Shown: positions 1,972 through 26,199 of the stretch, piece after piece | How positions within the stretch are numbered: position 1 is the stretch's first letter | Layout of the letters: each line of letters begins with the position of its first letter | Source: an uncultured Saprospiraceae bacterium | GTDB taxonomy: Bacteria; Bacteroidota; Bacteroidia; Chitinophagales; Saprospiraceae | Reading direction: 5' to 3' | Length of the DNA: 35,484 nt | Assembly: GCA_937973995.1 (NCBI GenBank) | Contig: CALJIQ010000531.1 | Coordinates: forward strand, 1-35,484 | Notes under the pieces: generated by a model | The model's input: only the letters and a program-made list of their open reading frames with translations | What the model was told of the DNA's origin: nothing | Database searches by the model: none | Translations under genes and position numbers: made by a program

Positions 1972-2037
1972 TAAATAATGAATTACGTGATTTATCCCTG
2001 ACATGGACTTTGAGTCTATGTAAGGGAAACAAGATTT

Positions 2038-2080
2038 TCTAAAGGGGCAGGTCAGGCATAGCTTGACTTGCCCCTTTAGA
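2038..2080. terminator. 17-bp stem-loop downstream of the propeller gene
   Basis: Arms 2038-2054 and 2064-2080 pair over 17 bp with one G-U position and a 9-base loop. The stem contains AAAGGGGCAGG and its complement. It starts about 65 bases after the stop codon. There is no T-run after it, so it could be a 3' processing or stability hairpin rather than a strict intrinsic terminator. Confidence 0.55.
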
Positions 2081-2105
2081 ATCCTATTGATACCTCACGT
2101 CTCTA

Positions 2106-2288
2106 AATCCCGAAAGGATTCAATATGAATAGCACCGTATGCAATACGGTGACATCATGTATAATGCTTTTTCCAACTCTGGAGGAGTTGAATATTGCAG
2201 ATTCAACCCATTCTGGGTTGGAAAACACGACTTATCTCTTATCCCTAGATTGCATCTAGGGCTATTCGTATTCAATCCCTTTGGGATT
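2106..2288. repeat. Six-hairpin dyad-symmetric palindromic element
   Basis: Six short palindromes lie in a row: H1 2106-2120, H2 2133-2151, H3 2174-2190, H4 2204-2220, H5 2243-2261 and H6 2274-2288. The whole element is also an inverted repeat around about 2197. The linker after H1 (2116-2133) matches the complement of 2261-2278 at 16 of 18 positions. H2 and H5 share the centre ATGCAAT, and H3 and H4 share flanking TTCCAAC. The paired hairpins have different stem sequences, yet each stem is still self-complementary, so the structure appears conserved rather than the sequence. I recall similar mosaics in other Bacteroidota genomes but cannot verify this. The minus-strand reading frame across it (2120-2317) looks like translated palindromes and is not called as a gene. 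Confidence 0.8.
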
Positions 2289-2337
2289 TTATAGACTAAA
2301 AAGGTGTTGGGGTTCAATAGCTTTTAGAAAACCTTGT

Positions 2338-3076: not shown

Positions 3077-3123
3077 GTCTTTTTTCTTTTTAAGTAGATT
3101 AGATTGGTTAAACTGATTTGGTT

Positions 3124-3184
3124 AATAGTCATTGGTCAATAGTCAATAGTCATTGGTTGTAATGACTAATGACCAATGACTATT
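3124..3184. repeat. Heptanucleotide-period inverted repeat (GTCATTG/GTCAATA words)
   Basis: From 3128 the words GTCATTG, GTCAATA, GTCAATA and GTCATTG follow each other with a 7-base period. The segment 3124-3145 pairs with 3163-3184 over 22 bp with one mismatch. The array fills most of the 107-base gap between two minus-strand genes and touches the stop codon of the SprB-repeat gene. The 18 bases at 3128-3145 recur exactly at 35450-35467. Confidence 0.85.
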
Positions 3185-6100
3185 TACTCTCTCTTTAAAA
3201 TTTTCTGACTATATCGTTTTAAGGTTCGATTTTGAAATTTTAAATAATAGATCCCACCAGGTAAGGCTTGAAGGGATAATTGGTATTTAGAAATATCGGT
3301 ATCAATAGTTACTTGTTGAATAACTTGTCCAAAACCATTGGCGACTTCCAGGATTGCTGGTTCCGTTCTACTTTCTAAGAAGTGAATAGTTAATTCCTCT
3401 TGTGCTGGATTTGGATAGACTGTAACTACGGATTTACTTGTTGGTTTTAGCATCGCCATAGCAGTATTGGAATAGGCATATCCCATGTTAGGATGGACCG
3501 TTTTTATTCGATAGTAATTCTCTCCAATGCTGGGCGATTTATCCATATAATCATAGGCGGTATAACTGTCAGATTGGAAAGCCTTCGCACTACCAATCGT
3601 CTTAAAATGAACACCATCTTGGCTGCGTTCAATGACAAAGTGACTTTGGGTTAGCGGAATATTCCCATCCCATTCTAACATGATTTCCGCTGCCATTGGC
3701 GTTACCCGTAATTGTTCTGCGGTAGGTATAGCTGCACAGTTCACTACGGTTTTAGCGATGACATTGGTTTCGCCCGGATAATTATCACAACCCTTTCTTC
3801 TAGTACATCGAATATAGTAAGTGGTCGATTGAATGCTATCTGGTTGATAAAATTCCTCATTAGAATTTGGGATTTCTATCCAATCTGGATCGCCAGGGGT
3901 ATAATCAGGTTTATGACTTTGTAGCCATAGATACTGTAATTCTCCTGAACCACCCGTTGGTTTGGACACACTGAATATTCGGGAAGGGCCTGCTGTAGGA
4001 CCACAAAGTATTTCGTCCTCGGCAATACTACCTCCGCTTAAAACATTATCACAAAATCCTTTGGGTACTAATCCGATATCTAGATCACCAAAAAACTCGC
4101 CACCTATCACAGATATTTCTTGACTCATGGCGGTAATTGGATCAATATCACTATCAAGATGATCTTCCCCTACATTGGGTGTTGAAATTTTTAAATTTAA
4201 GAAATCTGTCAGAGTAATTTTGTATGTACCTGCGACTACTAAAAACATGTACATTCCATTTTTGTCTGAAAGGGTATTTAATACGACTTCCTCCCCATAT
4301 TCATTGAGGCCGCTTAGGGTAATACCCACTCCTCTTAGTCCATCCTCTCCAACATCTTGGATACCATTATCGTTGCTGTCTTCAAAAACAAAATCTCCTA
4401 TTTTTGCAGGATTCTTTAGTTTAGCATTTGCCTCACAAGAACATCCGAAAGCATCCGTAATCGTCACAGAGTATTCTCCATCTGAAAGATTGCTAATGGA
4501 TGATTCTGTACTTCCATTACTCCATAAATATTTCAAGGAATTACCACCTTCAACGGCTGCTTGTAAATGTCCTTCTGATCCATTGATGGTAGTGATAGGG
4601 CTTATCACATTTATTTGACAGTTAGTAATGCTTTCTTGCAGTATGGTGGCAGTTGCTATTGCGGTACAACCGTTTTGATCTCTGACACTTACTTGGTAGT
4701 CACCTGGTGCTAAGTTATCTATGTTGGAAGTGGTTCTACTCAAACCATCATTCCATTGAAATTGATAAGGACCAACGCCTCCTTTCACAGTTGCTTCTGC
4801 GGCTCCAAAAGATTGGCAAGTAACATGACTGGTAGTAATGGTGACGGTTAGGGCTTCTGGTTCCGTTAAAGTAGTGTTCAAGGCAGTCGTACAGCCCAAG
4901 GCATCTACTATATCAATCGTATAAGACCCCGCCGAAAGATTTGCCACGCTAGGGTTGTTGGGTTGTCCATTCCATAGATAAGTATAGGGAGCAACTCCTC
5001 CATTAGTAGTGACCACAATCCCTCCAGTATTATCTCCAAAACAATTAATATTTTGAGTTGCTACTTCCGCTACTAAATTAGATTCATTGACAACTGGAAT
5101 GGAAATAGTATTGCTGCAACCCAAGGCATCTGTAACCAGAAGATCATAAACGCCCATCGTTACATTTTTTTTCTCACTGGTAGTTGAGCTATCTGACCAA
5201 AGGTAGGTATAGGGCGCTGTTCCGCCAGATACTATCACGTTAATTTGTCCATTGGCATCATCAGCGCAAGTTGCATTAGCTACTGTATGGTCAATGGTAA
5301 CAGGTGCTTGTACGAGGATTGTTGTTGTAGCTGTAGAAGTACAAACACCATCAAAAATAGATACCGTAATGGTATGTGTACCTGGTGTATCTGGGAAATA
5401 GATTGGACGATCACTATTCCCATCCGTGAAAGTTCCATTGGTAGCAGTCCATGAATAAGAACTGAAAGTGGTATTCCAATCGGTCGCCAGTTCTGTAGCA
5501 CCTTCCAGGCACAACGTCGTCGCCCCAGCGATAATATTGAAAGGACTAGCTCTGCGTCTATCTACTTCTATTGAATTATTTGATAGAACGGCACAGCCAG
5601 GTAAATTGGTTAAAGAACTTCCAATATTAATATTGGTCAAAGGCCTATCAGAACTAATATGCCAGATGTAACAAATGCCTACTTCTGTATTGTTGAAATC
5701 AAACGGAGGAGCAGAAGGGATGGCAATGACCGTTTCATGAATATCTGTAATTACCCAGGTAGAGTAGGTGCCAATGCTTCCAGCTACAACGGTATTAATC
5801 TCATTAGGGATACCGTCTCCAACGCATACAACTGTAGGGTCACTAGTAGAAATATCTCCTCCCGCTACATTGCATAATACATTACAAGCTTCTCCTGAAT
5901 ATCTATCAATTCTAATAGGGTTGGATAACCCAAAACACCCAGTAAGGCTTGCTAAGTTTACGCCTGGGGTAACACTATTAGAAATGGAAGAATCAAAACT
6001 AATATTTCTAATGAAAACAAATTCTTCGCCTGCTGATTCAAAATTAAATTGGTTACTATTTTGTACTCCTATGATGTTATCAGACTTATCAGTTACAATG

Positions 6101-8865: not shown

Positions 8866-9792
8866 ATGATAAAAGAACAATACACGACTTGGATAAAAGA
8901 AGAGGCAAAACGACTAGGTTTTGATGGTATTGGTATTGCCAAAGCAGCGCGATTGGATAAAGAAGCTAAACAATTAGAAAGATGGTTGAATAAAGGCTAT
9001 CATGGAAAAATGGGGTATATGGAAAATTATTTTGATAAGCGGGTAGATCCCACCTTACTAGTCCCCGGTGCAAAATCAGTCATTTCCTTAACCTATAATT
9101 ATTTTACAGAAGAAGAGCAAAAAGATCCTTCCGCCCCCAAAATATCAAAATATGCCTATGGGAAAGATTACCATAAAGTCATCAAGAATAAACTGAAAGA
9201 ATTTCTCTATAATTTGACAGAAAAAATGGGAGAAATAAGCGGTCGTTGTTTTGTGGATTCCGCACCTGTATTAGAAAGGGATTGGGCTAAAAAAAGTGGA
9301 TTGGGTTGGATTGGCAAAAACACCCTACTGATTCATCCTAAAAAAGGCTCTTATTTCTTTTTGGCGGAATTAATCATTGATGTAGAACTAGTACCAGATG
9401 ACCCTATAAAAGATTATTGTGGTACCTGCACCCGCTGTATAGACGCCTGTCCAACAGAAGCGATCAGTCCAAAAGGATACGTAGTAGATGGCAGTAAGTG
9501 CATTTCTTATTTTACCATAGAATTAAAAGAGCAAATTCCAACTACTTACAAGGGTAAATTTGAGGATTGGATGTTCGGCTGTGATATTTGTCAAGAGGTC
9601 TGTCCGTGGAATCGGTTTTCCACTTCACATGAAGAAGCGCAATTCCAGCCTACTACCGAATTATTAGAAATGACTAAAGCGGAGTGGAAAGAAATTACAG
9701 AAGAGGTATTCAAAAAAGTATTCAAGCAATCTGCCGTCAAGCGAACAAAGTACGCTGGCTTAAAACGAAATATTGATTTTTTATATGAATAG
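8866..9792 (+). CDS. queG: Epoxyqueuosine reductase QueG
   Basis: QueG catalyses the last step of queuosine synthesis in tRNA, reducing epoxyqueuosine to queuosine with cobalamin and two [4Fe-4S] clusters in the cytoplasm. The N-terminal DUF1730-type domain ends near the [12 protein letters not shown] motif, where D131 is the predicted general acid. The ferredoxin region has C185, C188, C191, C195 ([12 protein letters not shown]) and C212, C239, C242, C246 ([10 protein letters not shown]), enough for both clusters. At 308 residues it lacks the C-terminal HEAT-like extension of the ~380-residue E. coli and B. subtilis forms. I recall the short form as usual in Bacteroidota. The ATG at 8866 gives the expected N-terminus. 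The gene is followed by an octamer hairpin with a T-run. Confidence 0.95.
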
Positions 9793-9880
9793 GCGTTATG
9801 GCATTGTGGCACTATGGCATTGTGGATAAACACCATAATGCCGTAGTGCCACAACGCCATAACGCCATAACGCCTTTTTT
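9791..9880 (+). terminator. Octamer-array inverted repeat with T-run after queG
   Basis: The left arm 9791-9825 is a run of octamers such as GTTATGGC, ATTGTGGC, ACTATGGC. The right arm 9831-9875 is the complementary series with one extra octamer. TTTTTT follows, so this copy looks like a rho-independent terminator for queG. It ends only a few bases before the fluC ATG at 9884, so it covers that gene's whole upstream region. Confidence 0.8.
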
Positions 9881-9883
9881 CTC

Positions 9884-10246
9884 ATGCAATCTTTCCTAGC
9901 AGTATTCATAGGAGGAGGACTCGGAAGTATTTGTAGGTATGGAATCGCTAGAATCCTACAGCCTTTCGAGTTCGTATTTCCGTGGGCAACCTTTGTGGCT
10001 AATCTAATAAGTTGTATAGTATTAGGAGGTCTGATTGGCTGGTTCATGAAAAACGCTACTCAAGACGCTATCAAACTATTGTGGCTAACTGGATTTTGCG
10101 GTGGCTTTAGCACCTTTTCTACCTTTACGTATGAGACTTATGCTCTTTTGCAGGAGGGGAATTATTTCTATGCCTGTACGAATATCTGTTTAAGTTTACT
10201 TGTTTGTTTGGTAGGTATTTGGTTGGGCTTAAAACTTGTTCCATAA
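9884..10246 (+). CDS. crcB: Fluoride channel FluC (CrcB family)
   Basis: FluC is a small inner-membrane protein that forms dual-topology dimers and lets fluoride leave the cell. The 120-residue length, four hydrophobic segments, GGGLGSICRYG at the N-terminus (G11, G14, R18), N40 in the second helix and the GFCGGFSTFSTF motif (70-81, including F75 and F78) fit the family. No fluoride riboswitch is visible upstream, because that space is taken by the octamer hairpin. The start ATG gives a complete first helix. Confidence 0.95.
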   Translation: MQSFLAVFIGGGLGSICRYGIARILQPFEFVFPWATFVANLISCIVLGGLIGWFMKNATQDAIKLLWLTGFCGGFSTFSTFTYETYALLQEGNYFYACTNICLSLLVCLVGIWLGLKLVP

Positions 10247-21777: not shown

Positions 21778-21852
21778 ACTGGTGTTATGGTATTATGGTT
21801 TTATGGTATTATTGGCCATAACACCACAATACCACAAAACCATAATACCATA
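21778..21852 (+). repeat. Octamer-array inverted repeat between mutL and rhomboid 1
   Basis: GTTATGGT, ATTATGGT, TTTATGGT and ATTATTGG run to a GGCC centre and are mirrored by ACACCACA, ATACCACA, AAACCATA, ATACCATA. The right arm ends 6 bases before the true ATG at 21859. An upstream in-frame ATG at 21787 lies inside the left arm and would add 24 residues of translated repeat, so it is rejected as the start. Confidence 0.85.
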
Positions 21853-24110: not shown

Positions 24111-24157
24111 AGGTGTATTTTTATTGGTACACCGTTTGGAGTTCTTCTATAAGGTTA

Positions 24158-24197
24158 ATACCATAACACCAAAGTGCCATAATGCCACAACGCCAAA
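24158..24197 (+). repeat. Solo octamer array before korA
   Basis: Five octamers in perfect phase (ATACCATA, ACACCAAA, GTGCCATA, ATGCCACA, ACGCCAAA) form a right arm without a left partner. They lie inside an in-frame extension from a GTG at 24124, which is rejected as a start. The array ends 13 bases before the ATG at 24211. Confidence 0.8.
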
Positions 24198-26083: not shown

Positions 26084-26150
26084 AGGCGTTATGGCATTTT
26101 GGCTTTATGGTATTGTGGAACGATGGCTAACCATAAAGCCAAAATACCAA
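26084..26150 (+). repeat. Octamer-array inverted repeat after korA
   Basis: GTTATGGC, ATTTTGGC, TTTATGGT and ATTGTGGA run from 26088. The segment 26091-26112 pairs with 26129-26150. It starts 5 bases after the korA stop. An ATG at 26099 inside it would extend the next gene by 34 residues of translated repeat and is rejected. Confidence 0.8.
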
Positions 26151-26157
26151 AAAATAT

Positions 26158-26199
26158 AAAAGCCTTTTGTGTACCTTTGGTCGCACAAAAGGCTTTTTT
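26158..26199 (+). terminator. 14-bp terminator whose loop carries a -7 promoter box
   Basis: AAAAGCCTTTTGTG (26158-26171) pairs perfectly with CACAAAAGGCTTTT (26184-26197), followed by more Ts. The 12-base loop contains TACCTTTG (26172-26179), a TAnnTTTG match. Readthrough from korA would be terminated, while transcripts starting near 26184 would begin in the second arm and escape. The permease ATG follows at 26201. Confidence 0.75.

Follow-up and report, generated by a model that had tools for sequence, protein, structure and literature searches.

Several described systems resemble the locus reported here. With the REPINs or BIMEs and the associated RAYT (TnpA_REP) transposases of Pseudomonas and E. 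coli (PMC3116915, PMC3733652), it shares an inverted pair of palindromic units, an intergenic scatter as single copies and tandem arrays, and copies adjoining a Y1 transposase gene. The TnpA_Y1 proteins of subclass 1.2 have been presented as relatives of transposases that have neither IS features nor REP partners; they are generally without typical terminal structures, and their REP entry is 'no' (PMC6006769). The Y1 transposase and the subterminal hairpins on both flanks are in common with the IS200/IS605 family. The identical terminal inverted repeats and the 11-12-bp target duplications are in common with IS4-family insertion sequences and their MITEs. IS4 itself makes 11-13-bp duplications. 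The element in the window (the whole stretch of 35,484 nucleotides analysed, from an uncultured Saprospiraceae bacterium) is quite probably a REPIN-like pair of Y1-element ends, lacking the transposase, that has been captured by an IS4-type MITE.

Direct reading of the sequence confirms the six hairpins of the initial annotation, H1 to H6 at 2106-2288, which are mirror-symmetric about 2197. The match of 16 of 18 positions between 2116-2133 and the reverse complement of 2261-2278 is exactly as claimed, and ATGCAAT is present in H2 and in the opposite strand of H5. The repeat search of the window gives an inverted repeat of 80% at 2105-2145/2249-2289 and a second one at 2169-2193/2201-2225. A single three-hairpin unit, present twice in inverted orientation, makes up the six hairpins, with H1/H6, H2/H5 and H3/H4 as counterparts (Table 1; R1 is a covariance model of this half unit). 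The dyad is intergenic. The DNA fold of 2090-2300 has an energy of -40 kcal/mol compared with -16.1 ± 2.9 kcal/mol for shuffled sequences (z = -8.15), and 0 of 200 shuffles fold as well. H1 of the window copy contains one broken stem pair, C2111 opposite A2115.

Table 1. Features of the element and its flanks, in window positions.
Feature	Position	Strand	Sequence or composition	Basis or remark
Interrupted target palindrome	2029-2081	+	hairpin 2037-2081	inverted repeats I3 and I6
Decayed target duplication, left copy	2073-2083	+	CCTTTAGAATC	8/11 match with 2321-2331; weak alone
Left terminal inverted repeat	2084-2102	+	CTATTGATACCTCACGTCT (family consensus CTATTGATACCCCACATCT)	own-genome repeat search
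Left three-hairpin unit H1-H2-H3	2103-2193	+		model R1, 97.7 bits
H1	2106-2120	+	stem AATCC/GGATT	sequence reading, covariation
H1-H2 linker	2121-2132	+	CAATATGAATAG	with its H5-H6 counterpart, the most conserved linker
H2	2133-2151	+	stem CACCGTAT/ATACGGTG, loop GCA	
H3	2174-2190	+	stem CAACTC/GAGTTG	
Right three-hairpin unit H4-H5-H6	2201-2291	-		model R1 on the other strand, 102 bits
H4, counterpart of H3	2204-2220	-	stem CAACCCA/TGGGTTG	
H5, counterpart of H2	2243-2261	-	stem CCCTAGAT/ATCTAGGG, loop TGC (GCA on the - strand)	
H6, counterpart of H1	2274-2288	-	stem AATCCC/GGGATT	
Right terminal inverted repeat, decayed	2302-2320	-	CTATTGAACCCCAACACCT on the - strand	aligned copies
Decayed target duplication, right copy	2321-2331	+	CTTTTAGAAAA	

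The window contains further repeats. A 15-bp hairpin, GCAAATCAGATTGGC/GCTAATCTGATTTGC, is found at 2338-2372, just outside the MITE, and an AT-rich run at 3121-3185 comprises mirrored ATTGGTCA / TGACCAAT motifs. A repeated motif of the ATGGCATTATGGC type is present in the intergenic stretches 9591-9860, 9796-10047, 21787-21840, 24124-24180 and 26099-26160, and is read in ORF lists as MALWHYG / PQCHNA peptides.

The source genome is a draft of 5.4 Mb in 562 contigs. BLASTN of 2104-2290 against it gives 70 matches at about 40 places (a palindromic place being counted once), which is an undercount because many contigs end inside the repeat; a search with the H5 hairpin finds further copies. The 27 full copies obtained by sequence searches were placed in a plain MAFFT alignment, and the six local hairpins were scored. 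Stem cells are paired in 98.5% of cases, and double changes occupy 42 cells compared with 12.2 ± 2.7 in shuffles. In the control, with partners slid by 1-3 columns, pairing falls to 24-46%. The pairwise difference among these copies is 0.087 in stems against 0.316 in linkers, and the H1-H2 linker with its H5-H6 counterpart differs by 0.18, compared with 0.32 for all linkers. Co-alignment of the left and right halves gives one shared unit, with double changes in 8 pairs and 91 cells. A preference for convergent neighbouring genes is absent (6 convergent, 6 divergent and 7 tandem). One copy, L020, has its H5 hairpin tandemly duplicated at 628-663.

Covariance modelling was needed beyond this genome, because BLASTN across the family gave full copies in this genome only. 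Model R1 detects the unit in 16 of 120 genomes of the same family and in 39 of 395 genomes across the phylum. A sequence-only model, R2, was run on the fetched loci to lessen structure bias, some of which remains since R1 had originally found these loci; the own-genome set is free of it. R2 gives 143 matches with 93.2% of cells paired, and double changes in 20 of 21 pairs (348 cells compared with 86.4 ± 9.3 in shuffles). The H2 stem pairs comprise 67 distinct variants, while loops and linkers are conserved. The covariance-model search of Bacteroidota proposed in the initial annotation, made with the half unit, finds copies, and the claim of many copies with covarying stems is borne out both by the own-genome alignment and by the sequence-only search of the fetched loci. 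No earlier description of such units was found in the open literature, a search with subscription journals and ISfinder outside its range.

Another reading is that the unit acts as a transcribed RNA structure (a terminator, a stabiliser of mRNA or a small RNA), perhaps with control over the Y1 gene. Its intergenic location and stable fold would agree with this, and the conservation of paired stems suits RNA and DNA alike. However, no family of such kind was found in Rfam, which gave only weak eukaryotic look-alikes far below the cut-off. Inverted pairs place the units on both strands, and there are also arrays of them away from Y1 genes. The triloops of the unit strand are mostly GNA (193 of 250, against a single TNC, partly as a result of the model used), and GNA triloops are reported to be very stable in DNA (PMC4686876). 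A role as RNA is improbable.

In the phylum search, some inverted units form pairs with a spacing of about 550-600 bp. This suggested a gene between them, and the fetched loci contain a Y1 transposase gene at this place. L207 has a unit at 739-829, the Y1 gene at 913-1353 and a second unit at 1367-1455, and L208-L212 have the same layout, with the gene exactly between inverted units. The Y1 protein matches PF01797 at 79.5 bits, and the Y1 genes between units in L207-L212 are 52-59% identical to that of L154. With the unit loci ranked by R1 alone, nine of the best 19 have a Y1 gene within 1.5 kb; the chance expectation for 19 loci is well under one, at about three Y1 genes per genome. Y1 loci were also picked by PF01797 independently of the unit; the four of them that belong to the clade (L154, L164, L146 and L155) each have a unit match nearby, two of these matches being weak. 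The tree places nearly all unit-bearing Y1 genes in one clade with a support of 100/99; unit-bearing loci with Y1 genes outside it are L138, which is clear, and L140 and L143, which are weak. In G112, remnants of a Y1 gene lie beside a dyad. REP-type Y1 transposase genes, which the initial annotation suggested looking for, thus adjoin copies of the unit design in other genomes. For the form that contains the gene, neither an empty site nor a product of excision was seen.

The clade has the motifs DH[LIV]H, WQ and Y--NQ--HH, a length of about 148 aa and an occurrence in Bacteroidetes. These fit the criteria of subclass 1.2 (HUH motif DH[IV]H, WQ, Y---Q--HH, about 148 aa, Bacteroidetes or Cyanobacteria), an assignment made by motif alone and not by position in the published tree. 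The source genome, as far as the draft covers it, yielded no Y1 gene from the unit-bearing clade. The one full-length Y1 gene of this genome (L093, contig C14) is outside the clade and lies amid CGTGCCTTTAGGTACG hairpin repeats; it was rejected as partner of the dyad, its hairpins (CGTGCC..GGTACG) being a different set. The non-clade Y1 genes L141, L143, L144 and L145 each lie amid short hairpin repeats of their own kinds.

The inner layer of the window element consists of two inverted H1-H2-H3 units. Elsewhere in Bacteroidota the unit forms both flanks of Y1 (HUH, IS200-like) genes of one clade, in the order [H1H2H3]-tnpA-[H4H5H6]; with the loss of tnpA, the two flanks would meet to give a six-hairpin dyad, the likely counterpart of a REPIN, that is, a non-autonomous REP doublet. 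By analogy, gene-less dyads may correspond to the REPINs of PMC3116915. The Y1 enzyme of the clade probably has the units as its single-stranded substrate, and would both bind and move them. Binding of the folded single strand would most likely depend on its shape, its loops (GAA/GNA) and the linker, and not on the letters of the stems. Since the enzyme is proposed to read these parts, compensated changes could accumulate in the stems, with loops and linkers kept.

The outer layer is larger than the hairpins. Similarity among the aligned copies extends past them to the inverted repeat CTATTGATACCCCACATCT, and terminal inverted repeats at both ends bound a 237-bp MITE at 2084-2320, of which the six hairpins are the interior. 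The limits first given to the element were thus too narrow at both ends. In the source genome CTATTGATACCCCACATCT is present at 58 places with at most 2 mismatches, and at 0 places when read backwards as a control. The 237 bp of the MITE contain no ORF that reaches 80 aa, its places number about 40 in this genome, and its target duplications have a near-constant length of 11-12 bp in sister copies, that of the window copy being decayed. Perfect 11-bp direct repeats lie outside sister copies, with ATTTTTGAAAT in L002 and ATTTCAAAAAT in L005 and L044, and the perfect target duplications of L006 and L012 are of 12 bp. The targets of sister copies are themselves palindromic, for example GATAAC-T-GGTATTT-TTG-AAATGCC-T-GTTATC. 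Remains of such a palindrome are the best reading of the window flanks, where the outer arm 2029-2043 pairs with 2323-2337 on the far side of the element. The 11-column average for target duplications over all 13 pairs is 6.7, little above the 5.9 of mismatched pairs, because the targets all resemble each other, duplications of 12 bp fall out of register, and the flanks of three copies are unlike; only individual perfect duplications carry weight. Several MITE copies (L011, L014 and L020) have two different palindromic targets on their left and right, which suggests that copies have recombined or were misassembled.

The terminal repeat was scanned for in 85,000 species genomes. L244, from another uncultured Saprospiraceae genome, contains two copies of it (TATTGATACCCCACATCT) about 1.5 kb apart, with a transposase gene between them. 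The protein is an IS4-family transposase (NF033590 at 320.7 bits, with a cut-off of 160; also PF14706 and PF01609), and its terminal repeats are identical to those of the MITE. PF13586 gave no match. The initial annotation had held that the locus was no known IS end, which is wrong, since these inverted repeats also bound an IS4-family insertion sequence; its copies, covariation and Y1 adjacency stand. An IS4-type enzyme would have moved the window copy. A relative of the L244 transposase was not found in the source genome, G063 or G107, fragmented drafts searched with no positive control. An IS4-type gene on contig C87 of the source genome was rejected as partner of the MITE because its inverted repeats differ.

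The six-hairpin dyad is also present in the genus of G107, where its stems are different, the inverted repeats around it (TAATGTCGTCAACTTAGCGA) are of another sequence, and target duplications of 11 bp such as CACTTTAAGTG occur. The dyads of other genera have no such terminal inverted repeats in a test that detects the positive controls L123, L165 and L005 and gives a low score to the decayed window copy. In the source genome and the G107 genus, the dyad lies inside terminal inverted repeats and has multiplied as a MITE, inserted into palindromic targets with duplications of 11-12 bp; the repeats of the source genome are those of an IS4-family insertion sequence. Capture of the dyad by the MITE would be secondary, and the order of these steps is the one we infer. 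It is very improbable that the dyad is the IS4-type MITE's own design, with sites for a DDE transposase or host factor, and that its nearness to Y1 genes reflects a shared preference for insertion into palindromes. Dyads inside inverted repeats starting with TAWTG and with 11-bp duplications in two genera would be in line with such a design, but the ends of the full-length IS4-type element L244 have no hairpins of the dyad kind, a 47-bp element has none either, and the dyads of other genera lack the repeats.

Other fillers are also enclosed by the same terminal inverted repeats in the source genome. The 47-bp minimal MITE, L062 (contig C417, about 2824-2873), consists of little beyond two inverted repeats, is without hairpins, and has a nearly perfect target duplication. 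L066 (C201, 2533-2700) and L069 (C19, 1811-2033) have these repeats around a different, GGAGCGTAGCTCC-like hairpin array, and such an array is likewise inside the same repeats in L228, L233 and L243 from other Saprospiraceae. Such fillers, with the inverted repeats and target duplications, speak for a pure IS4-type MITE in which the hairpins are neutral filler, kept self-complementary by template-switch correction in replication. Correction of quasi-palindromes would likewise yield double changes. However, units with this order, these loops and these linkers are found throughout the phylum, in most cases without the MITE repeats, so that the unit is conserved where no such MITE exists. The units also flank one Y1 clade, and correction leaves the conserved loops, the linkers and the gene association unexplained. 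Neutral filler is unlikely, if less so than the two readings above. Double changes are expected under selection on structure as well as under hairpin-correcting replication, and what speaks for recognition is confined to the conserved loops, the linkers and the association with the gene.

A broader reading is somewhat more likely than not. Within the orphan HUH subclass 1.2, one clade would be partnered with multi-hairpin ends that are read by shape, loop and linker instead of stem; these ends would diverge freely, and gene-less dyads would occur throughout the phylum, some hitch-hiking on unrelated DDE transposons. A poorly understood Y1 subclass gains a candidate, testable DNA substrate, and more than 60 natural stem variants keeping one fold are useful for learning what an HUH enzyme reads in a hairpin. 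The locus is also an example of the ends of one mobile element travelling inside another.

When compared to the known systems, the locus differs from each. Filler of IS4-family MITEs is here a Y1-type hairpin dyad, and such a transposase is not seen in the source genome. Subclass 1.2 as published (PMC6006769) is without such partners, whereas one clade is flanked here by three-hairpin units. In contrast to IS200/IS605, there are several hairpins per end, the ends are mutually inverted, and many dyads are gene-less. Like REPINs, the units are inverted, dispersed and palindromic, and a dedicated Y1 transposase gene is present in other genomes, though not in the source genome. No GTAG-type hairpin foot was recognised, and the class 2 RAYT of REPINs is absent: the most frequent letters at the H2 foot are AATAG/AATAA, and the Y1 gene is of the class 1 type (Y---Q--HH, here Y--NQ--HH) instead of class 2 (Y---NP). 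Each unit has three hairpins where a REPIN has one, with variable stems, conserved loops and linkers, and an enclosing MITE. The IS-like form [unit]-tnpA-[unit] beside the REPIN-like form [unit]-[unit] represents a step proposed for the origin of REPINs (PMC3116915).
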